DNA of 64,000 bases from the NCBI RefSeq assembly GCF_004103715.1, contig NZ_CP035282.1:2532673-2596672 (forward strand). The letters run 5' to 3'. Positions 21,973 to 61,941 of this stretch are shown in pieces (position 1 is the first letter of the stretch; the number at the start of each line of letters is the position of its first letter). The DNA is from Acidilutibacter cellobiosedens. GTDB taxonomy: Bacteria; Bacillota; Clostridia; Tissierellales; Acidilutibacteraceae. Under the pieces are notes generated by a model. That model saw nothing but the letters and a program-made list of their open reading frames with translations. It ran no database searches and was not told the origin of the DNA. The position numbers were made by a program, and so were the translations under genes.

Positions 21973-22094
21973 TCTTGGTTTGTTAAAAATAGCACAATGT
22001 TAATCACCGAATTTAATATTGTCTTTATATTCTCATCATGGGATAATTGAATAAATTATATATAAAATTTATCTTAGGAGGGCAATATAGAAGT

Positions 22095-22892
22095 ATGAAA
22101 AATTTAATTCCATTGATGAAAAAGTTCAATTTTACAGAATATGAAACAAAGGTATATGTAACTTTGCTAAAGGTAGGTCCGTCGACAGGATATGAAATCA
22201 GTAAACAGTCTTCTGTACCACGTTCAAGAGTATACAATATTTTAGAAACTTTAATTCAAAAAGGAATTGTATTGGAAGCACAAACCAATCCGATCTTATA
22301 TAGTGCTATCCCAATCAACGAATTTAAGGAAAACATAAGCCGAAATGTTTCAAGTTCTCTTGAAGAAATAGATAACTATTTAGTTCAATATGAAAAAAAT
22401 ACGGATTCAGAAGCATTATGGAATATCGATGGATTTCAAAATATTTTAAACAAAAGTAAGTACTTAATCCAATATGCAAAAGAGGAAGTTTTGATTCAAA
22501 TATGGCAGGAAGATTTAGATAAGGAAATGGTTCAGCTCTTACAAAAAACTAATCAACGCCTCAAAAAATTCGTATTAATTTTATTTAGTGAAACTCAACA
22601 GTATGATCTACCTTTTGACCACTATTACAAACATGGTTTTGAAAAAGACAAACTTAAAGAAATGGGAAGCAGATGGATATCAGTAGTAATTGACGAAAAG
22701 GAAATGATCTTTGGCTCTATTTCAAGCAAAGTTAACGGAGAAGCTGTATGGACAAAAAATCATTCAATGGTATTTCTTGCAAGGGAACATATTGTTCATG
22801 ATGCATATTGCCTAAATATAATACAGCATTTAGATGAGAAAACAAAGAAAGAATTTGGTGATGACTTAGAAAAAATAAGAAAAATATATTAA
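22095..22892 (+). CDS. TrmB-family transcriptional regulator
   Basis: The 265-residue product begins with a winged helix typical of TrmB proteins (TEYETKVYVTLLKVGPSTGY, EISKQSSVPRSRVYNILETL, IQKGIVLEAQTNPILYSAIP). The C-terminal half resembles the phospholipase-D-like sensor part (EEVLIQIWQEDLDKEMVQLL). ATG 22095 is used although AGGAGG lies 13 bases upstream, a longer gap than usual. The permease and ornithine-cyclodeaminase-family genes follow in the same direction with short gaps (18 and 22 bases), so it is probably the local regulator of that cassette. The inducer is unknown. Confidence 0.85.
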   Translation: MKNLIPLMKKFNFTEYETKVYVTLLKVGPSTGYEISKQSSVPRSRVYNILETLIQKGIVLEAQTNPILYSAIPINEFKENISRNVSSSLEEIDNYLVQYEKNTDSEALWNIDGFQNILNKSKYLIQYAKEEVLIQIWQEDLDKEMVQLLQKTNQRLKKFVLILFSETQQYDLPFDHYYKHGFEKDKLKEMGSRWISVVIDEKEMIFGSISSKVNGEAVWTKNHSMVFLAREHIVHDAYCLNIIQHLDEKTKKEFGDDLEKIRKIY

Positions 22893-24908: not shown

Positions 24909-25151
24909 CTAAATTTCCACTCTTCCTATCCCAACTCTTTTATCTTTTCCGCAACTTGGGCAACAAAAAAGATGCGTACATTCATCTTCCGCTGCCCCGT
25001 CTTCTGTATGGGAAATATCATCTAACAAATAAGGGCTATAATTATCTAAATAATTAACTACAGGACCATTATCCGACATATCTCTGCCACAGTTGGGACA
25101 GCTTATTTCTATTTCATATAACCCATTACATAATGGGCACACTCTTTTCAA
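24909..25151 (-). CDS. Small zinc-ribbon protein of unknown function
   Basis: The 80-residue protein has three CxxC pairs: CPLCNG at residues 5-10, SCPNCGRDMSD at about 17-27, and CCPSCGKDKR near the C-terminus. Together they can hold one or two zinc ions in a rubredoxin/zinc-ribbon fold. The middle part is acidic (DISHTEDGAAEDE). A ribosome site (GAGAGGTGG) lies upstream. Similar small zinc-ribbon proteins are common in Clostridia without a known role. It stands alone, convergent with the cassette before it. Confidence 0.7.
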   Translation of the reverse strand: MKRVCPLCNGLYEIEISCPNCGRDMSDNGPVVNYLDNYSPYLLDDISHTEDGAAEDECTHLFCCPSCGKDKRVGIGRVEI

Positions 25152-25277
25152 ATTAAACCACCTCTCCGGTAAAGATAATTTTTAAGCAATATCAAAAAAA
25201 ACACCATTTAATATGATATATATTTTTATCATAAGTTGTCACGATTATTAATTTATTATAAAACTTTAAAATTTTTA

Positions 25278-25319
25278 TTGACAAAATATAATATTTTCAT
25301 AGTATATACTATGAAAATA
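25278..25319 (+). promoter_or_regulatory. Promoter with a 28-bp perfect palindrome
   Basis: A consensus -35 box TTGACA (25278-25283) is followed by a perfect palindrome of 28 bases (25292-25319; core CATAGTATATACTATG) that covers the expected -10 region (AGTATA/TATACT). Such a site would let a dimeric repressor block RNA polymerase directly. It lies just before the T-box leader, so the cysteine operon may have both transcription-initiation and tRNA-sensing control. Confidence 0.6.
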
Positions 25320-25324
25320 AAAAT

Positions 25325-25580
25325 TGTTAAATGCTGTGATAAAAAATAGTAGCATAAAATAAAAGCTGAAAGAAATTTTAAGCATAATTTTATGTGAATG
25401 CATCTTTGAGCACTGTCTCGAAATAAAATAGACGACAGCGGTTACGCCCGATAGAAGCGTTAAGGTATGTTTGTGCCGATAAAAACGAGTTATTATATGC
25501 TTATATTATATATAATAATTAGAGTGGAACCGTGGAATTTACTTCCGCCTCTAAGAAATAGAGGCGGAAGTTTTTATTTT
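25325..25580 (+). promoter_or_regulatory. T-box leader, probably cysteine-specific (specifier TGC)
   Basis: The T-box core AGAGTGGAACCGTGG at 25521-25535 binds the 3' end of uncharged tRNA. It is followed by a terminator stem CTTCCGCCTCT (25542-25552) / AGAGGCGGAAG (25560-25570) and a T run. Upstream, the stem I region has the pattern GTGAATGCATC, where TGC at 25399-25401 is placed as the specifier codon and encodes cysteine. This agrees with the genes downstream, which make cysteine from homocysteine. When tRNA-Cys is uncharged the antiterminator should form and the operon be read. The 465-base gap before the first gene is explained by this leader and the palindrome. Confidence 0.88.
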
Positions 25581-25617
25581 TTGTATATAAGTCTTCAAAT
25601 TTAAAGGAGGTGTATCT

Positions 25618-26240
25618 ATGAATTCAATACAATATTTCAACACTGTAGCTAAAAAATGGAATGTAATACGAAGTGAATACTTTGAGGAGAGACTAAAATA
25701 CAAAGCTTTATCAAAAGTAAATATAAAGGATAAGGAGTCGCTGATTTAGGCTGCGGAACCGGTTTTATTTCATTAGCTCTTGCTGATGACTCAAATATAG
25801 TATTTTCAGTTGACAATTCAAGAAATATGCTCAAAGAATTAAAAGAAGAAGCATTAAAGAGAAATTTGAAAAATATCTACCCTCTGAACTCCTCGCTTGA
25901 TAACCTTACTTTATTTGACGAATCATTAGATGCCGTATTTATAAACATGGCACTTCATCATATTAAAGATGCTAAAAAAGCTATAAATGAAATGTACAGA
26001 GTACTGAAAAAATCAGGAAAATTAGTAATATCAGATGTAACCGAGCATAACGGAGAATGGGCAAGAGAAGAAATGTTTGACGAATGGTTGGGTTTTTCAA
26101 ATGATACCATTTATGCATGGCTTAAAGAGGCAAAGTTCACTGATATCAATATAGAAAATACGGACTTAAGATGCAAGGGATATTCCAGTAAGGGCGAATA
26201 CACGGAAACAGGTATATTCATAGCGGCAGCAACAAAATAA
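25618..26240 (+). pseudogene. SAM-dependent methyltransferase, one-base frameshift
   Basis: ATG 25618 follows AAAGGAGGTGTATCT. The first 43 codons (MNSIQYFNTVAKKWNVIRSE) end at TAG 25747. The expected SAM-binding motif continues in another frame from about 25740 (ADLGCGTGFISLALADD), then VDNSRNML, FINMALHHIKDAKKAINEM and KSGKLVISDV to the stop at 26240. One extra base near 25734-25738, for example a second G in the run GGAG, would restore a product of about 207 residues. The intact form would be a YrrT-like methyltransferase, which turns SAM into SAH and so feeds this pathway. Whether the break is real or a sequence error cannot be told here. Confidence 0.8.
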
Positions 26241-26261
26241 ATATAATATGAGGAGGAAAAA

Positions 26262-27410
26262 ATGAAAATAAAATCGTTATTGATTCATGGAGGAAAAGAT
26301 GGGGATGAATTCACAGGTGCTGTAAACATACCTATTTACCAGACATCTACCTTTAAGCAACCCGAATTTGGCGTAAATAAAGGTTATGAATACTCAAGGA
26401 CAGGAAACCCCACAAGAGAATCGTTAGAAAAACTTATTTCTGATCTTGAAGAGGGGTATGCAGGCTTTGCATTCGCCTCAGGAATGGCCGCAATTACAGC
26501 GGTACTTTCCCTATTCAAGTCAGAGGATCAAATTATAATATCAAATAACGTATATGGCGGAACTTTCAGAGTCCTTAACCAAATATTTAATAATTTTAAT
26601 ATAGGATATAAAATAGTTGATACGTCAAATCTTAACGAAGTAGAAAAAAACATCGATAAAAATGTGAAAGCTATATATATCGAAACTCCTACGAATCCTC
26701 TTATGGATATTACTGATATTGAGGAGGCAGCAAAGATAGCAAGAAAACATAAAATTCTCACTATAGTTGATAATACTTTCATGACTCCATATTTGCAAAG
26801 GCCTATTCTATTAGGCGCTGATATAGTAATCCATAGTGCCACGAAATATCTTGGAGGTCATAGCGATCTTGTAGCAGGACTTGCAGTGGTAAATACTGAA
26901 GATTTGGCAGAAAAATTACATTTTATACAAAACTCCACCGGAGGTATTCTCGGTCCCTTTGATTCATTTTTACTTATAAGAGGAATAAAAACTCTTTCAG
27001 TAAGAATGGACAGACATGATGAAAATGCAAAATTAATCGCACAATTTTTAAAGGGCAGACCTGAAATAGAAAAAATATACTATCCGGGATTTAAAGAACA
27101 TCCGGGACATGATATACAAAAGAAGCAAGCCGATGGCTACGGAGCAATGATCTCCTTCGTTCTCAGAAGGGAATATAACTATAAAAAGTTTTTCAAAAAT
27201 CTTTCTCTTATAACTTTTGGCGAAAGTCTCGGAGGAGTAGAATCTCTTGTATGCCATCCTGCATCTATGACTCATGCTGCTATTCCCTATGAGATAAGGC
27301 AAAAAGTCGGTATAACGGATAATTTAATAAGATTATCCGTGGGAATCGAAGATAAGGAAGATTTGATCAATGACCTGAAAGAAAGCTTGGAAGCAAGCAA
27401 GGAGGTATAA
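26262..27410 (+). CDS. mccB: Cystathionine gamma-lyase / homocysteine gamma-lyase (MccB type)
   Basis: The 382-residue product is a full-length Cys/Met-metabolism PLP enzyme. It has YEYSRTGNPTRESLEKLISD, the aromatic-stacking SGMAAITAVLSLF region, IYIETPTNPLMDITDIEEAA, and the PLP lysine in HSATKYLGGHSDLVAG, followed by the active-site ESLGGVESLVCHPASMTHA. In the Firmicute reverse transsulfuration pathway this type splits cystathionine to cysteine. It sits between the methyltransferase and cysteine synthase genes under the cysteine T-box, 3 bases before the next gene, which supports the MccB role over methionine gamma-lyase. The ribosome site is GAGGAGG. Confidence 0.85.
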   Translation: MKIKSLLIHGGKDGDEFTGAVNIPIYQTSTFKQPEFGVNKGYEYSRTGNPTRESLEKLISDLEEGYAGFAFASGMAAITAVLSLFKSEDQIIISNNVYGGTFRVLNQIFNNFNIGYKIVDTSNLNEVEKNIDKNVKAIYIETPTNPLMDITDIEEAAKIARKHKILTIVDNTFMTPYLQRPILLGADIVIHSATKYLGGHSDLVAGLAVVNTEDLAEKLHFIQNSTGGILGPFDSFLLIRGIKTLSVRMDRHDENAKLIAQFLKGRPEIEKIYYPGFKEHPGHDIQKKQADGYGAMISFVLRREYNYKKFFKNLSLITFGESLGGVESLVCHPASMTHAAIPYEIRQKVGITDNLIRLSVGIEDKEDLINDLKESLEASKEV

Positions 27411-27413
27411 ATA

Positions 27414-28324
27414 ATGCCGTCATATTATAACGATATAAAAGAATTGGTTGGAAAAACACCGATACTCAAATTAAATAATATTTCTGTCAAGGAAGAAGTA
27501 AATGTCTTCGCTAAACTTGAAATATTCAATCCGGGAGGAAGCGTAAAGGATAGAATCGGCATATATATGATTAAAAAAGCTGAAGAAAAGGGGATTTTAA
27601 AAAAGGGTTCCACTATTATAGAACCAACTGCCGGAAATACGGGGTTAGGCATAGCCTTGGCCGCAATAAATAAAGGATACAGAGTAATATTTACGGTCCC
27701 AAAAAAATTTTCCATAGAAAAACAATTGCTTATGAAAGCCTTTGGGGCTGAAATAATCAATACTCCTGAGGAACAAGGAATGAAAGGGGCTATAGAAAAA
27801 GCTGAAGAATTATTAAGTACTATCAATAATTCCGTTTCTTTAAACCAATTTGAAAACCCTGCAAATCCGTTGGCTCATTATGAAACTACAGGACCGGAAA
27901 TATATGAAGCATTGGATGGCAAAATAGATTATCTAATAGCAGGAGCAGGAAGCGGAGGTACTTTCACCAGCATAGTCAAATATCTCAAGGAAAAAAATCC
28001 AAATATAAAAGGGATAATTGCAGATCCGGAAGGCTCCATAATAGGTGGAGGCACTAAAGGGTGTTATAAGATTGAAGGTATAGGCAACGATTTTATTCCG
28101 GACACTCTTGATATGACTTTAGTAGACAGTTTTATAAAGGTTAATGACAATGAAGCCTTTGACATGGTAAAGGAATTGGCAAAAAAGAAGGATTAATCGT
28201 AGGATCGTCTTCGGGAGCTGCCGTAAGTGCGGCATTAAAATTGACTTCAACTATAAACAAAGGGAATATAGTGGTCGTATTGCCCGATAGAGGAGACAGA
28301 TATTTTAGCAAAAATATATATTGA
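27414..28324 (+). pseudogene. mccA: Cysteine synthase / cystathionine beta-synthase (MccA type), frameshifted
   Basis: The reading frame from ATG 27414 encodes a fold-type II PLP enzyme: NPGGSVKDRIG with the PLP lysine near residue 42, the EPTAGNTGLGIALA loop, and the AGAGSGGTFTS phosphate loop. It stops early at 28196 after LAKKKD. The normal C-terminus continues in another frame (GLIVGSSSGAAVSAALKLTS, then VVVLPDRGDRYFS) to TGA 28322-28324. One missing A in the run after GGC (six present near 28180-28186) accounts for it. Joined, the protein would be about 302 residues, the family length. The homopolymer position makes a sequencing error plausible; the alternative is gene decay. Confidence 0.82.
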
Positions 28325-28399
28325 TTATTTTAAAATTGCATTTTATGTGATAATATTTCAGATATATAAGTTATTCTTATAAAGTCAGGAGGAGAATAA

Positions 28400-29644
28400 A
28401 TGCGTGAAAATTTAATTAGGGATATAAATTTGGCACCATCGGGACATAAAAAAATAGATTGGGTAAAAGGCTATATGCCAGTATTATCATTTATTGAAAA
28501 AAAATTTACGGAAGAGCAGCCCCTTAAAGGGAAAAAGATAACCATGTCCATACATCTGGAAGCAAAAACAGCCTATCTGGCCAAGGTCCTTAAAGCGGGA
28601 GGAGCGGATGTAACGGTAACAGGAAGTAATCCCCTTTCTACTCAGGATGACGTGGCTTCGGCATTAGCTGAGGACGGCCTGAAAGTATATGCTTGGTATA
28701 ACTCCACTTCTGAAGAATATAATAATCATCTAAATTCCGCGTTAGATATCGAACCAAATATAATACTTGATGACGGAGGAGATTTGGTTAATTTACTCCA
28801 TACAACAAGACAGGAACTTATTAAAAATATCATCGGAGGTTCGGAAGAAACTACTACAGGTGTATTAAGGCTTAAAGCAAGAGAAAGAGAAGGCAAATTA
28901 AAATTCCCCATGATTTCTGCTAATGGCGCTTATTGTAAATATCTCTTTGACAACCGATATGGTACAGGTCAGTCCGTCTGGGACGGAATAATGAGAACGA
29001 CAAATCTTATAGTTGCAGGTAAAAATGTAGTGGTAATAGGATACGGATGGTGCGGCAAAGGCGTTGCCATGAGAGCTAAGGGCCTCGGCGCCAAAGTCAT
29101 AATCTGTGAAATCAATCCTATTAAAGCTATAGAAGCTCATATGGACGGCTTTAAAGTAATGCCTTCCTTAGAAGCTGCAAAAATAGGAGATATTTTTATA
29201 ACTGTAACGGGTGATATGAAAGTTCTTTCAAAGGAGCACTATAAGTTGATGAAAAATGGTGCTATTATGGCCAATGCCGGACATTTTGACTGTGAAGTCT
29301 GGAAACCGGATCTTGAAGAAATGAGCATAGAAAAGCGGGAAATGAGAAAAAATATTACAGGATATGTAATGCCGGACAAAAAAATATTAAACCTTCTTGC
29401 TGAAGGAAGATTAGTTAATCTCGCTGCAGGAGACGGCCATCCGGCAGAAATAATGGATATGAGTTTTTCCATTCAAGCTCTGTCCATAAAATATTTAATA
29501 AATAATGCAGGAAAATTGGAAAACAAAGTATATGATGTTCCGGATGAAATAGATAAAGAAGTAGCAACAACAAAATTAAAATCAATGGGAATAGAAATTG
29601 ACCGTCTTACAGAAGAACAAGAAAAATATTTAAAAAGCTGGTAA
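28400..29644 (+). CDS. ahcY: Adenosylhomocysteinase (S-adenosylhomocysteine hydrolase)
   Basis: The 414-residue product matches SAH hydrolase through its length. It begins with [20 protein letters not shown] and [20 protein letters not shown], and the NAD-binding [20 protein letters not shown] segment lies near residues 210-230. [16 protein letters not shown] and [20 protein letters not shown] follow. It splits SAH reversibly into adenosine and homocysteine in the cytosol. It follows the cysteine operon after 75 bases with its own AGGAGGAG ribosome site, and would supply the homocysteine used by mccA/mccB. Many Firmicutes use MtnN plus LuxS instead, so this is the detoxification route chosen here. 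Confidence 0.93.
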
Positions 29645-29652
29645 AAGAGGTC

Positions 29653-29694
29653 GCCCCAAAATAGAAAGCAAAATTCTATAAGGGGCTTTTTTTT
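29653..29694 (+). terminator. Terminator of ahcY
   Basis: GCCCC (29653-29657) pairs with GGGGC (29682-29686), with an inner ATAGAA/TTCTAT stem, followed by eight T residues. It ends the plus-strand sulfur cluster. Confidence 0.8.
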
Positions 29695-29703
29695 ACTTCT
29701 AAT

Positions 29704-30375
29704 TTATTCTTCATTGATTAATTTCCCGTCCTCAATCCTTACTATTCTGTCTGACATTTGGGCTAACCTTTCATCATGGGTTATCATTACTAAGGTTTGG
29801 TGATATTTTTTTATGGATTGCTTTAAAAGATTCAACACTTCCAAACTCGTTTTTGAATCAAGGTTCCCTGTAGGTTCATCTGCAAGAACTATGGAAGGTC
29901 TCGTAGCTAAAGCTCTTGCTATCGCAACTCTTTGTTGCTGTCCTCCTGATAATTCATTAGGGAAAGCATCCTTTTTCCCGATAATATTTAAAGTTCTCAT
30001 AATTTCTTTTATAAACTCTTCGTCTACAACTTTTAAATCAAACTCTATAGGTAAGATTATATTTTCCCATACATTCAACACAGGAATCAGGTTATAGGAT
30101 TGAAAAACAAATCCTATCTTTCTCCTTCTAAATATGGTTAAACTCTCATTATCCATAGAATATATATCCTTCCCATCTATAAACACCCTTCCAGACGTAA
30201 GCCTGTCCAATCCTCCCATCATATGAAGAAGAGTCGTCTTGCCGGAACCTGAAGAACCTACTATTGCAACAAATTCTCCTTCTTCTACAGATAGGTCTAC
30301 TCCGTCCAATGCTTTTACTAAACTTTCGCCCTTCCCATAATACTTTTTCAAAGATTTTGTTTCTAATATCTTCAT
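29704..30375 (-). CDS. ABC transporter ATP-binding protein (MacB/LolD-type), no permease found
   Basis: The 223-residue ATPase has Walker A GSSGSGKTT near residue 40, Q-loop FQSYNLIPVLNVWENI, signature LSGGQQQR near 141 and Walker B IVLADEPTGNLDS. The length and motifs place it in the MacB/LolD/BceA group, which works with FtsX-type permeases in peptide-antibiotic resistance or cell-wall control. The expected permease gene is absent: ahcY's terminator lies at its 3' end. It follows the histidine kinase gene by 155 bases. ATG 30375 has a GAAAGGTGAAGC ribosome site. It is probably the remaining part of a sensor-transporter module. Confidence 0.88.
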   Translation of the reverse strand: MKILETKSLKKYYGKGESLVKALDGVDLSVEEGEFVAIVGSSGSGKTTLLHMMGGLDRLTSGRVFIDGKDIYSMDNESLTIFRRRKIGFVFQSYNLIPVLNVWENIILPIEFDLKVVDEEFIKEIMRTLNIIGKKDAFPNELSGGQQQRVAIARALATRPSIVLADEPTGNLDSKTSLEVLNLLKQSIKKYHQTLVMITHDERLAQMSDRIVRIEDGKLINEE

Positions 30376-57315: not shown

Positions 57316-59035
57316 GGGACCAGTGAAAAAGTAGCTTTTTTCCCTAATAATTATTCTAATTCAAACAAAATTTATAATACTGACTAAAAATTTTAATGTT
57401 TAAGGTAAATATACAAAATTTAGAGGCAGCTATTGCTGCTATCCTCTTTATATTTACCGCTATTGCTGCTAATTTCGATTGCATGGACACACTTAATAGA
57501 CCATATCCTCTTGCACGATATAGTCCGTGAAATCTTTTGAGTTCTGCATTTTTGCCTTCTATGGAAGCCCTTTTTTTATATTTTTCCAAGTATTCTTCCG
57601 TCTTTTGATATTGTGATATTTCATAGAATTCTATAGTATTTAATCCTATCTGTAGTATCTTCCTTGCACTTTTTTTTGCACACTCATCATGTTTTGGGCA
57701 TCTTTTACATTGTTCCGGTTCAAAATAATATTTATATCCTTCTCTGTCCGGCCTTGATTTCCCCTTTATTTTATAATATTTCTTTTTTACGGTTATATTG
57801 CCTTCTCTACACTCCCACTCGTCTGAGTCTTTATTGTATGAAAATTCGCTTTCATCAATTCTATATACCGATTCACTTACAGGTATGTAAGCTTTAGCTT
57901 TAATTTCCTCAATACTATTTAAAATTGGTTTCCTAAAATATGCCTTGTCCCCATAAACCTCCTCTATTTTCATTCCGGATTTTAATGTTTGCTCAATCAG
58001 TTCATCTGCATATGTTCCATCTACATATGCTCCATCTGCTGTTCTTACTGATGTAATTATTCTTTCATCTGCTGTCATCATAAATTCAGTTTTATATCCA
58101 TAGAATTCTTGATTCTTACTTTTTCGGCCGACTCTTGCATCTTCATCTATTATGGAACGAACACCTTTCTGATTTAAAAATTTAGGATCTTCTATTATTT
58201 CTCTTGCTTTTTCTATAGTTTCTTTTGTTTTTATACTTTCACTGCAATCTTTTCTGATATTCTTTTTAACTTTACTTATTACATTTTCAAGATAATCTTT
58301 CATTACAGCCTTTGCTTCAGTATGATCTTCGATTTCTTTATATTTCGGTACTTCGGGAATTTCTTCTAAAACCTGGTTGTTTTCTTTTTCATATGTTTTA
58401 ATAATTTTTCTTGCTAAATGTTTCATTAACCTCTCTGGAGTCTTTCTTATTGTATTTGCTTCTATATGAGTGGCATCAACGCTTACACTTGTTCCTCCTA
58501 TTATCCCTTTCTCTACACATTGTCTTACAATTTCTGTGATTATTTCATCTAAAGTAGCTTCTTCCAGTCGTTGAGTTCTAAATTTCGATAATAAACTTTT
58601 GTCAGGTAACTCATCTTCCGGATTAATGCCAAGAAAATACATATATCCTAAGTTTAAGTTTGCTTCTTCAATAACCTTTTCATCCGATAATATGTACAAA
58701 TGTTGAAGAAAAAGCAATTTACACATCATTTCAGGTTCTTTTGCAGGTCTTCCAAAGTTTTTACAATAGCTGTCTTCAAGCAATTTATTGATAAAACTAA
58801 AATCTACTACATAATTTATTTTTTTTAGTATATGATTCTCAGAAATTTTATTGTATAATATTGAGTGTAGAGACATTTGTTTTTGAACTTGTCTTAACAT
58901 GATAAAGCCTCCTCATTTGGTTATGTTTTGTTTGCACTTACATTATACCATATCAGGAGGCTTTTCTTTTATTGTATAAATATCTTATTTTTAATACAAT
59001 TTTTATTATCAAATGGAGACTTTATCACTGGTCCC
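57316..59035 (-). mobile_element. IS1182-family insertion sequence, complete
   Basis: The 1720-base element starts with GGGACCAGTGAAAAAGT and ends with ACTTTATCACTGGTCCC, matching inverted ends with one difference in 17 bases. The 9-base sequence GGACGTTTC is directly repeated on both sides (57307-57315 and 59036-59044), the mark of transposition. It holds one transposase gene. The joined flanks read ACATGGGGACGTTTC then ATTTGTC, a phrase I recall as part of a frequent intergenic repeat, so the target itself may be a repeat. Confidence 0.85.
57356..58900 (-). CDS. IS1182-family transposase
   Basis: The 514-residue protein has the N-terminal GRPAKEPEMMCKLLFLQHLY domain and the DDE catalytic core: DATHIEANTIRK (first D), VYGDKAYFRKPI (second D) and the late RASIEGKNAELKRFHGLYRA (E). 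A cysteine cluster CKRCPKHDECAKKS lies before the last acidic residue, as in this family. It reads on the minus strand within the inverted ends and appears intact. No frameshift is seen, so the element may still be mobile. Confidence 0.93.
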   Translation of the reverse strand: MLRQVQKQMSLHSILYNKISENHILKKINYVVDFSFINKLLEDSYCKNFGRPAKEPEMMCKLLFLQHLYILSDEKVIEEANLNLGYMYFLGINPEDELPDKSLLSKFRTQRLEEATLDEIITEIVRQCVEKGIIGGTSVSVDATHIEANTIRKTPERLMKHLARKIIKTYEKENNQVLEEIPEVPKYKEIEDHTEAKAVMKDYLENVISKVKKNIRKDCSESIKTKETIEKAREIIEDPKFLNQKGVRSIIDEDARVGRKSKNQEFYGYKTEFMMTADERIITSVRTADGAYVDGTYADELIEQTLKSGMKIEEVYGDKAYFRKPILNSIEEIKAKAYIPVSESVYRIDESEFSYNKDSDEWECREGNITVKKKYYKIKGKSRPDREGYKYYFEPEQCKRCPKHDECAKKSARKILQIGLNTIEFYEISQYQKTEEYLEKYKKRASIEGKNAELKRFHGLYRARGYGLLSVSMQSKLAAIAVNIKRIAAIAASKFCIFTLNIKIFSQYYKFCLN

Positions 59036-60127: not shown

Positions 60128-61941
60128 ATTCCAGTACATCTTATGTTAAGGTTCAACGAGAAGTTGTCAATGGAGTAACGGTCACTGAACAACCATTTCA
60201 ATACATCCTATGTTAAGGTTCAACAAGCTAAAATGACAAAAATAAAGAAAAAATACTATAAATTTCAATACATCCTATGTTAAGGTTCAACGTTATTTTC
60301 TCTGGCTGCTCTGTTATTGTTACTCCATATTTCAATACATCCTATGTTAAGGTTCAACGAAAATCGTAAAAGATACTTTGAGCAAGAAAACAAGATTTCA
60401 ATACATCCTATGTTAAGGTTCAACAAGGGTACATGACATGGCTAAGTTTCAAATATGCCAATTTCAATACATCCTATGTTAAGGTTCAACAGAGATCATC
60501 GGCAGAAGCGCAAGCGCGTTCCCTGCATTTCAATACATCCTATGTTAAGGTTCAACGAGTGTGCAATCAATGGAAATTAAAGATACAATATAATTTCAAT
60601 ACATCCTATGTTAAGGTTCAACTTTTGCCGAGTGTATATGGCAATTAAAAAATATAGATTTCAATACATCCTATGTTAAGGTTCAACCCAAGTTGACCGT
60701 AGCCATTTTCACCGCAGGCCCAATTTCAATACATCCTATGTTAAGGTTCAACACGGAGATTATGTGCATGGAGAGGGTGAAGAAAAAGATTTCAATACAT
60801 CCTATGTTAAGGTTCAACAGTAGATACTCCAAAAGAAGATAAAAAGATAGTAGCATTTCAATACATCCTATGTTAAGGTTCAACTGTTGTGGAGTGGTTT
60901 TTGGAAGTTCAAAACCAATAATTTCAATACATCCTATGTTAAGGTTCAACAGATATAATAATCGTTCTTACAGTAGAAGTAGAAAAATTTCAATACATCC
61001 TATGTTAAGGTTCAACGAGGTTTTAGAGAAGATGTTCCTACGATTGATACTGATTTCAATACATCCTATGTTAAGGTTCAACAGATGCTCGAAAACCGAA
61101 TCAAACTTCAATTTTCATTTCAATACATCCTATGTTAAGGTTCAACTGTTTTCTCGTATTCAGCATTCATCTTATTTATGCTTATTTCAATACATCCTAT
61201 GTTAAGGTTCAACATTATACCTTGCAAAGTATGCCAAGTCGACGGCATAATTTCAATACATCCTATGTTAAGGTTCAACCTGTTGCCATAACTCGTCGGT
61301 GTCGGGCTTTCCCAATTTCAATACATCCTATGTTAAGGTTCAACAAATCGGGGCCTCGTCGGGCGAAATGGCAAAATATTCATTTCAATACATCCTATGT
61401 TAAGGTTCAACAAAGGAAAAATTGGGTTCTGAATATAACTTTAATTAATTTCAATACATCCTATGTTAAGGTTCAACATAGCAGAGGTAGCAAAGGATTT
61501 CGGAGCTGAATCAAAATTTCAATACATCCTATGTTAAGGTTCAACTATTAGCGATATATTCACAATATTATGTTGTAGCTTAATTTCAATACATCCTATG
61601 TTAAGGTTCAACATGGACGACTGGAGAGTTGTTCCTGGAGATCCATAATTTCAATACATCCTATGTTAAGGTTCAACAAAGAGATAGAAAGGTTATACGG
61701 TTTATATTTTTTATTTCAATACATCCTATGTTAAGGTTCAACGTCTTGCCATTACTCTATATGTGCAAGACCAACAAGTATTTCAATACATCCTATGTTA
61801 AGGTTCAACAGAAGAAAAGACTCCTTTATATTCATTTTGTTATGGAATTTCAATACATCCTATGTTAAGGTTCAACGAAGATATAGAGAATACCAAAGAA
61901 TACATGATGCGATTTCAATACATCCTATGTTAAGGTTCAAC
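60128..61941 (-). CRISPR. CRISPR array, 28 repeats and 27 spacers
   Basis: A 30-base repeat recurs every 64-68 bases, at 60128, 60194, 60262, 60329 and onward to 61912. On the minus strand it starts GTTGAACCTTAACATAGG and ends GATGTATTGAAAT, the ATTGAAAT tail typical of type I crRNA handles. Spacers are about 34-38 bases and look unrelated. The repeat at 60128 has three changes from the others, as at the old, distal end. The cas genes and presumed leader lie at the other end, so the array is read on the minus strand. Short reading frames across it (repeated LNLNIGCIE-type peptides) are artefacts of the repeat. Confidence 0.97.

Follow-up and report, generated by a model that had tools for sequence, protein, structure and literature searches.

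The stretch analysed here, a 64-kb window of Acidilutibacter cellobiosedens (contig NZ_CP035282.1, positions 2,532,673 to 2,596,672, forward strand), carries a ubiG-mccB-mccA operon whose predicted promoter is covered by a perfect 28-bp palindrome and whose leader is a cysteine T-box with a shortened Stem I. In the leaders of related operons the promoter commonly bears a different element, a 26-bp imperfect dyad, which also precedes Rrf2 genes of the CymR type and is a predicted operator of that regulator. This dyad is missing from the window. The reading that we tentatively prefer, with confidence that stops short of even, is that the palindrome is a rearranged relic of a CymR-type operator region, in an operon whose T-box is impaired. 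"Window" denotes the whole 64-kb stretch, and L-numbers denote the loci of relatives or of the same genome that were used for comparison.

The palindrome and the predicted promoter

The palindrome TATTTTCATAGTATATACTATGAAAATA occupies positions 25292-25319 with arms of 14 bp, zero mismatches and zero spacer, exactly as stated in a preliminary description of this DNA, and it is the longest spacer-free palindrome of the window. In Markov-1 simulations, arms of at least 12 bp arose in 0 of 60 sequences of 64 kb, and arms of at least 14 bp are expected about 1.4e-4 times in the local 189 bp. An equally long inverted repeat was obtained in 0 of 300 shuffles of the 90-bp context. Judged by real AT-rich DNA, Markov models are too strict as a measure of chance: 49 loci (522 kb) contain two spacer-free palindromes with arms of at least 14 bp, so that one such element per 64-kb window is uncommon, not extraordinary. 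Within 199 kb of the A. cellobiosedens genome (overlaps counted) there are three further spacer-free palindromes with arms of at least 11 bp; each is flanked by A-rich sequence, and two of them (L023, L005) lie at T-box terminators.

The core of the palindrome, CATAGTATATACTATG, occurs exactly once in the genome, and at up to two mismatches it has 7 sites, the same number as the control. The genome search recommended in the preliminary description thus recovered the core itself, and the idea of a regulon was rejected, near-matches being no commoner than in the control. The element was likewise rejected as a terminator (it is absent from the terminator scan list and has G-C pairs at 2 of 14 positions). 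Its central 24 bp have zero exact copies in viral contigs. A text search of the literature for a published operator with the letters of the palindrome gave, among the 25 listed of 69 matching papers, none beyond CATAGTATA; a second one matched a 12-letter piece in two papers, as judged from the listing alone.

No comparable palindrome was detected among 16 leaders of relatives in one set, among 10 leaders in a second set (three of these duplicates), or at the T-box promoters of the organism's own cysS, cysE and cysK genes. At the cysS promoter lies an inverted repeat of 9 bp around an 8-nt loop, a length equalled by 12 of 300 shuffles. Lack of conservation in relatives, named beforehand as a result that would speak against a repressor site, was therefore observed only at a distance: it is distant leaders that lack the palindrome, the genus search comprised the A. 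cellobiosedens genome only, and no relative of the same family was among the matches listed. In C. acidisoli (L032:3990-4040) an inverted repeat with 11-bp arms and a 10-nt loop spans the ubiG start (1 of 300 shuffles equal); being of different sequence and the sole match in the 16 relatives tested, it was rejected as support for the palindrome.

The best plus-strand promoter of the region, TTGACA-16-TAGTAT, scores 9.8, against 5.1-14.1 for 20 of the 21 other T-box promoters of the genome (L023 was left out). Since 23 of 300 shuffles reach the same score, the promoter can be regarded as fairly well predicted but not certain. The palindrome covers both its -10 and its start, which agrees with the position assigned to it earlier, and with a start at about 25312 the transcript would include just a portion of the right arm. 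The gap between the -10 and the T-box is 21 nt; for the top candidates at 20 other own promoters it is 11-27 nt in 17 cases and 31, 36 and 43 nt in the rest. From the -35 to Stem I the window measures 65 nt; among 16 relatives this distance ranges from 59 to 107 nt and exceeds that of the window in 14. No regulator gene directly adjoins the palindrome; a TrmB-like one is encoded at 22047-22892, three genes upstream.

A dyad of related leaders and CymR-type Rrf2 genes

Many leaders of relatives share the 26-bp imperfect dyad catAgTAAACaaATAgGAATAgTAtg. Its matrix, derived from 19 relatives, is symmetric about the centre, with r 0.60 compared with absolute values of no more than 0.24 for other shifts, and at these 19 sites the arms pair at 4-10 of 13 positions. 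Scoring was performed with the symmetrised matrix, leave-one-out for training sequences and a threshold of 11, which was reached by 24 of 30 leaders and by 0 of 30 reversed control regions. Leave-one-out is lenient in this case, because near-identical relatives (such as L037, L039) are present; of the rows outside the training set, 6 of 11 reach 11, one of them (L048) with a site identical to that of a training row. Five leaders had been dropped before the count (L154, L156 and L158, which are the same as L031, L033 and L036, and L161 and L166, in which no T-box motif was found), and L110, L111 and the loci L051-L087 and L089-L107 stood outside the scoring. In some of the scored loci the leader is followed by mccB alone, and in L162 by a transporter gene. 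Measured from the end of the best predicted -10, the start of the dyad falls between -12 and +30 bp in 17 of these 24 leaders; for the remaining seven the predicted promoter lies elsewhere (in L034 the site is over the -35).

Data outside the matrix training connect the dyad with a particular group of regulators. Five of six CymR-type genes have the dyad 46-79 bp ahead of the Rrf2 match, whereas it occupies that place in none of the relatives' 24 other Rrf2 loci, four of which have a hit far downstream. These 30 loci were fetched from a longer list, and two of the tree proteins (L220, L227) are fragments. The CymR-type group has a tree support of 99/97, and its member L223 adjoins cysK; we use this name because the CymR candidate of Clostridium acetobutylicum has been placed beside cysK (PMC3828012). 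The distribution of the dyad, before five of six CymR-type genes and none of the others, points to it as the predicted operator of a CymR-type protein. For C. acetobutylicum this first layer of control is already in print as a prediction, at a locus, CAC0929-0931, that we take to be ubiG-mccBA, in part from a published table annotation. A CymR site was predicted there more than 300 nt upstream of CAC0929 (PMC3828012), and the table lists CA_C0930 as cystathionine gamma-synthase, with CymR (PMC4845359). The centre of the window palindrome is similarly placed, about 313 nt before the start codon of ubiG, but the palindrome does not fit the CymR-type matrix and no CymR-type Rrf2 was found in the genome.

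The preliminary description had envisaged a repressor acting at initiation and tRNA sensing at termination. As far as relatives are concerned, such two-layer control has support, since 19 of 24 T-box-bearing leaders carry the predicted operator as well, and it is better supported there than in the window. For the palindrome itself the proposed binding of a repressor fared less well, its core being single-copy and no such palindrome having turned up in the relatives' leaders that were compared. The two layers may no longer work in the window, because the T-box lacks a segment of Stem I and two genes are frameshifted. Some leaders have kept only one of the two elements: the operator occurs without a detected T-box motif in the mccB leaders L045, L047, L048 and L049, where one layer may have outlived the other, and the T-box occurs without the operator in L031, L043 and the window. 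This suggests that each element can be lost alone. A further leader upstream of mccB (L044) has a broken-looking cysteine T-box, with Stem I-like sequence, no T-box motif found, and an operator score of 27.5.

In the parts of the literature that we consulted, clostridial cysteine control is described mainly via T-boxes, and CymR sites are predictions based on motifs from Staphylococcus (PMC2940859, PMC3828012). The present comparison provides an operator matrix tied to CymR-type genes and reveals the joint presence of operator and T-box on leaders. The window may capture such a promoter after its transfer into a host that lacks the regulator.

The window leader scored -0.5 against the threshold of 11, so the match to the operator failed; the earlier remark that the palindrome is unlike the familiar CymR pattern is thereby borne out with a matrix derived here. 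With the unsymmetrised matrix the best score in 25200-25420 is -2.6, and that at the palindrome is -2.9. At the organism's own T-box promoters of cysS, cysE and cysK the scores were 2.1, -1.6 and 0.4, respectively, and the operator pattern is not enriched in the genome as a whole (56+76 sites versus 64+73 in controls). Among the proteins of this genome (98% complete) we found two Rrf2 members at E <= 0.001 and none of the CymR type. One is encoded beside nifS and groups with a nifS-linked Rrf2 (L202), the other has a very long branch and an unsure place, and both fall outside the CymR-type group. Matches above 100 bits numbered at least two in each of the 17 other genomes searched, and one in A. 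cellobiosedens. A possible trace of the operator is offered by L160, which has CATAGTA-12-TACTATG with a flank, TACTATGAA, that resembles the right arm of the palindrome. The core of the palindrome can be read as the half-sites CATAGTA/TACTATG, 10 bp closer together than in L160.

The T-box leader and the operon

The window T-box is real. The covariance search upheld both the leader and its TGC specifier as described earlier, matching RF00230 over the full model length, yet its 81 bits are below the gathering score of 93 (Table 1). The genome has 22 T-box matches, four of which, including this one, fall below that score. Three of the others are also cysteine T-boxes, preceding cysS (L016), cysE (L017) and cysK (L024), genes that were read by eye. 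Alignment of the window with these three and with 16 leaders of relatives (of which L110 and L111 precede other genes) revealed the TGC specifier in 20 of 20 rows. The TGGA of the antiterminator presumably pairs with the 3' end of the tRNA, as T-boxes generally do. A pattern search of the genome for tRNA-Cys gave zero matches.

What sets the window apart is the loss of about 20 nt of Stem I, a segment present in all 19 other rows, where it contains AGAGA (17 rows) or AGAAA (L042, L111). An AGAAA also exists in the window, but on the opposite side of the UGxRA loop. The double T-loop of distal Stem I is thus incomplete: its AGAGA half is gone and its UGxRA half is retained. According to the published account (PMC7583486), AGAGA and UGxRA form a pair of T-loops to which the elbow of the tRNA binds, and disruption of the motif weakens tRNA binding up to 60-fold; T-boxes without this motif are known, mostly translational ones. 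The window shares the specifier, T-box sequence and terminator of transcriptional RF00230 T-boxes and differs from them in the disrupted elbow-binding motif (PMC7583486), and with half of that motif lost the T-box should respond weakly. Of 60 near-invariant columns the window breaks six, four of them within the missing segment, compared with 0-4 in the 16 relatives and 12, 4 and 5 in the three own rows.

Two observations concern other T-boxes of the genome. The cysK leader (L024) has the T-box sequence GTGGGACC, versus GTGGAACC in the cysS, cysE and ubiG leaders, and tandem T-box matches (L023 and L026, 3030302-3030723) precede a gene that by eye resembles one for an amino-acid-binding protein.

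Table 1. Features of the promoter, leader and operon in the window
Feature	Position	Strand	Basis or remark
-35 hexamer TTGACA	25278..25283	+	part of the top-scoring + strand promoter (9.8)
Predicted -10 TAGTAT, in left arm of palindrome	25300..25305	+	prediction only; start ~25312
Perfect palindrome, 28 bp, no spacer	25292..25319	.	spans predicted -10 and start
T-box leader, cysteine type, shortened Stem I	25327..25555	+	RF00230, 81 bits, E 5.2e-18
Stem I gap, ~20 nt with AGAGA T-loop missing relative to other rows	25363..25364	+	alignment
Specifier TGC (Cys)	25399..25401	+	RF00230 alignment
Antiterminator TGGA	25525..25528	+	read from sequence
Intrinsic terminator, stem 13 bp	25541..25571	+	terminator and inverted-repeat scans
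ubiG, class I methyltransferase, frameshifted	25618..26240	+	open reading frames; Pfam Methyltransf_11 on 25827-26237; by-eye comparison with L031
mccB, cystathionine gamma-lyase/homocysteine desulfhydrase, intact	26262..27410	+	NF005810, 595.4 bits, cut-off 594
mccA, cysteine synthase/CBS family, frameshifted	27414..28325	+	TIGR01139 matched to position 252/298; end read by eye
ahcY, adenosylhomocysteinase	28400..29644	+	NF004005, 700.9 bits

The order methyltransferase, cystathionine lyase, cysteine synthase-like protein is present, with the first and third genes frameshifted. In ubiG the first frame ends at 25749 and the conserved frame is open from 25734 to 26240, while in mccA the first frame ends at 28196 and the conserved end lies in a different frame. 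A frame-switch scan of the window revealed no split gene, a result of little weight, as it left both known frameshifts unflagged; the NCBIfam scan covered 25 window proteins outside the operon and was not systematic for further frameshifts. The ahcY gene is possibly co-transcribed (no terminator was seen by eye in the gap).

A ubiG-mccB-mccA operon with a Cys T-box has been described in C. perfringens, C. botulinum and C. acetobutylicum, and in the last of these the T-box is reported as not fully functional (PMC2940859). The window shares with these operons the gene order, the Cys T-box leader and the methionine-to-cysteine function, and differs in its short Stem I, its frameshifted ubiG and mccA, and ahcY at the 3' end. 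The same source describes further control by an S-box antisense RNA in C. acetobutylicum and by VirR/VR-RNA and VirX in C. perfringens, whose operon has luxS, which the window operon lacks. An antisense S-box like that of C. acetobutylicum was rejected for the window, no RNA family match up to E 1 being found in 25560-29800.

The mccB protein points to an origin of the operon outside the order. Its best match in other genomes of the same order (249 genomes) has 65% identity, and in loci titled Clostridiales or Clostridium identity reaches 78%. In a tree of 39 rows, from which six sequences were left out, the window groups with 25 others, 20 of them labelled Clostridiaceae, at a fork with support 100/99; four rows of its own order form a separate starred group, and two more lie elsewhere on long branches. 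This grouping with mostly Clostridiaceae proteins suggests horizontal acquisition of the operon.

Possible origins of the promoter

These data can be combined into the following scenario, which is the relic reading in full. The operon would turn methionine-derived homocysteine into cysteine, and ancestrally it would have been controlled by a CymR-type Rrf2 repressor bound to the 26-bp imperfect dyad at the promoter and by a cysteine T-box that aborts transcription upon charging of tRNA-Cys. It probably came from a Clostridiaceae-like donor into a host in whose genome we found no CymR-type Rrf2. The promoter would then have been altered, the operator disappearing and the perfect palindrome taking its place. 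The simplest route would be a fold-back (template-switch) mutation in which the right half of the operator, with its flank, was copied in inverted orientation. The palindrome would now provide the -10, and the T-box would keep its cysteine specifier and terminator but lack one half of its elbow-gripping motif; control would probably have been lost.

Several results weigh against this scenario. The likeness between the palindrome and the operator half-site is weak: among 4000 local random sequences, 198 do as well with a 10-bp half and 2982 with a 13-bp half, the latter being no signal at all. The operator is likewise missing from L043 and from L031, one of the nearest loci by mccB (scores -1.7 and -6.7), so its loss could predate the transfer; the mccB tree does not resolve the nearest neighbour of the window, and no sister genome displaying an earlier state of the promoter was found. 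The distance from the -35 to Stem I is barely longer in L029, L032 and L043 (67-70 nt) and shorter in L034, L110 and the own L016, and L042 breaks six near-invariant columns, as many as the window, when the own rows are excluded. Both frameshifts fall at A-rich runs and may be assembly errors instead of decay, and with intact mccB and ahcY genes the operon is not obviously defunct.

Less probable than a relic, in our view, yet a serious rival and the main one, is that the palindrome functions as operator for a different, dimeric repressor, which would have replaced the CymR-type one and would block RNA polymerase by covering the -10 and start, with the T-box as second layer. Perfect symmetry over the predicted -10 and start, a length far above local chance and the operators at relatives' promoters all favour it. 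Against it stand the single-copy core with near-matches at the control level, the lack of such a palindrome at the other cysteine T-box promoters of the genome, and the lack of a regulator gene directly beside it, the TrmB-like one being three genes away. The arms are also unusually long and perfect when set against the 4-10 paired positions of the relatives' sites. A fuller version, in which the operator was swapped for the palindrome of a different repressor after transfer into a CymR-less lineage, two-layer control being kept and the T-box shortened, we consider unlikely; if true, it would be a case of regulator exchange at a T-box operon in nature. A chance origin in very AT-rich DNA, unrelated to any operator, is more doubtful still: the two palindromes of this size in 522 kb of AT-rich loci speak for it, but the low local expectation, the shuffles and the position on the core promoter speak against it.

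Two further readings, both very improbable, concern the promoter itself. Were transcription to start further upstream, the palindrome would be a 5' RNA hairpin. The promoter required, TTTAAA-16-TATAAT (-10 at 25287-25292), ranks second among plus-strand candidates, a hairpin forms at this stretch when the predicted leader is folded, and the resulting 34-nt gap to the T-box has parallels in the 31, 36 and 43 nt of three own promoters. Its score is, however, 5.6 against 9.8, the gap is shorter in the other 17 of 20, and a start at about 25299 would exclude part of the left arm. Marginally less probable again is an overlapping bidirectional promoter around a shared -10. A reverse-strand promoter, TTAACA-18-TATACT, shares the -10 region, and the predicted starts, 25312 (+) and 25294 (-), are 18 bp apart, the spacing most commonly reported for such promoters (PMC12825309, PMC10268837); there is also a divergent small open reading frame at 24909-25151, zinc-ribbon-like though without a Pfam match. 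Nevertheless, the prediction places stronger reverse promoters at 25284-25255 and 25242-25213, and the midpoint of the starts (25303) is off the palindrome axis (25305.5), which leaves the 28-bp symmetry unexplained. The window would resemble the published promoters with a symmetric -10 in its predicted opposed, overlapping -10s and predicted start spacing, and differs in the extent (28 bp) and axis of its symmetry (PMC12825309, PMC10268837).

Elsewhere in the window we noted a gene for an ABC transporter ATPase (29704-30375) that adjoins a sensor kinase and a response regulator, with no permease gene seen alongside, a transposase of the IS1182 family (57359-58900), and a CRISPR repeat array (60195-61941) with 27 CRISPR-DR3 matches.
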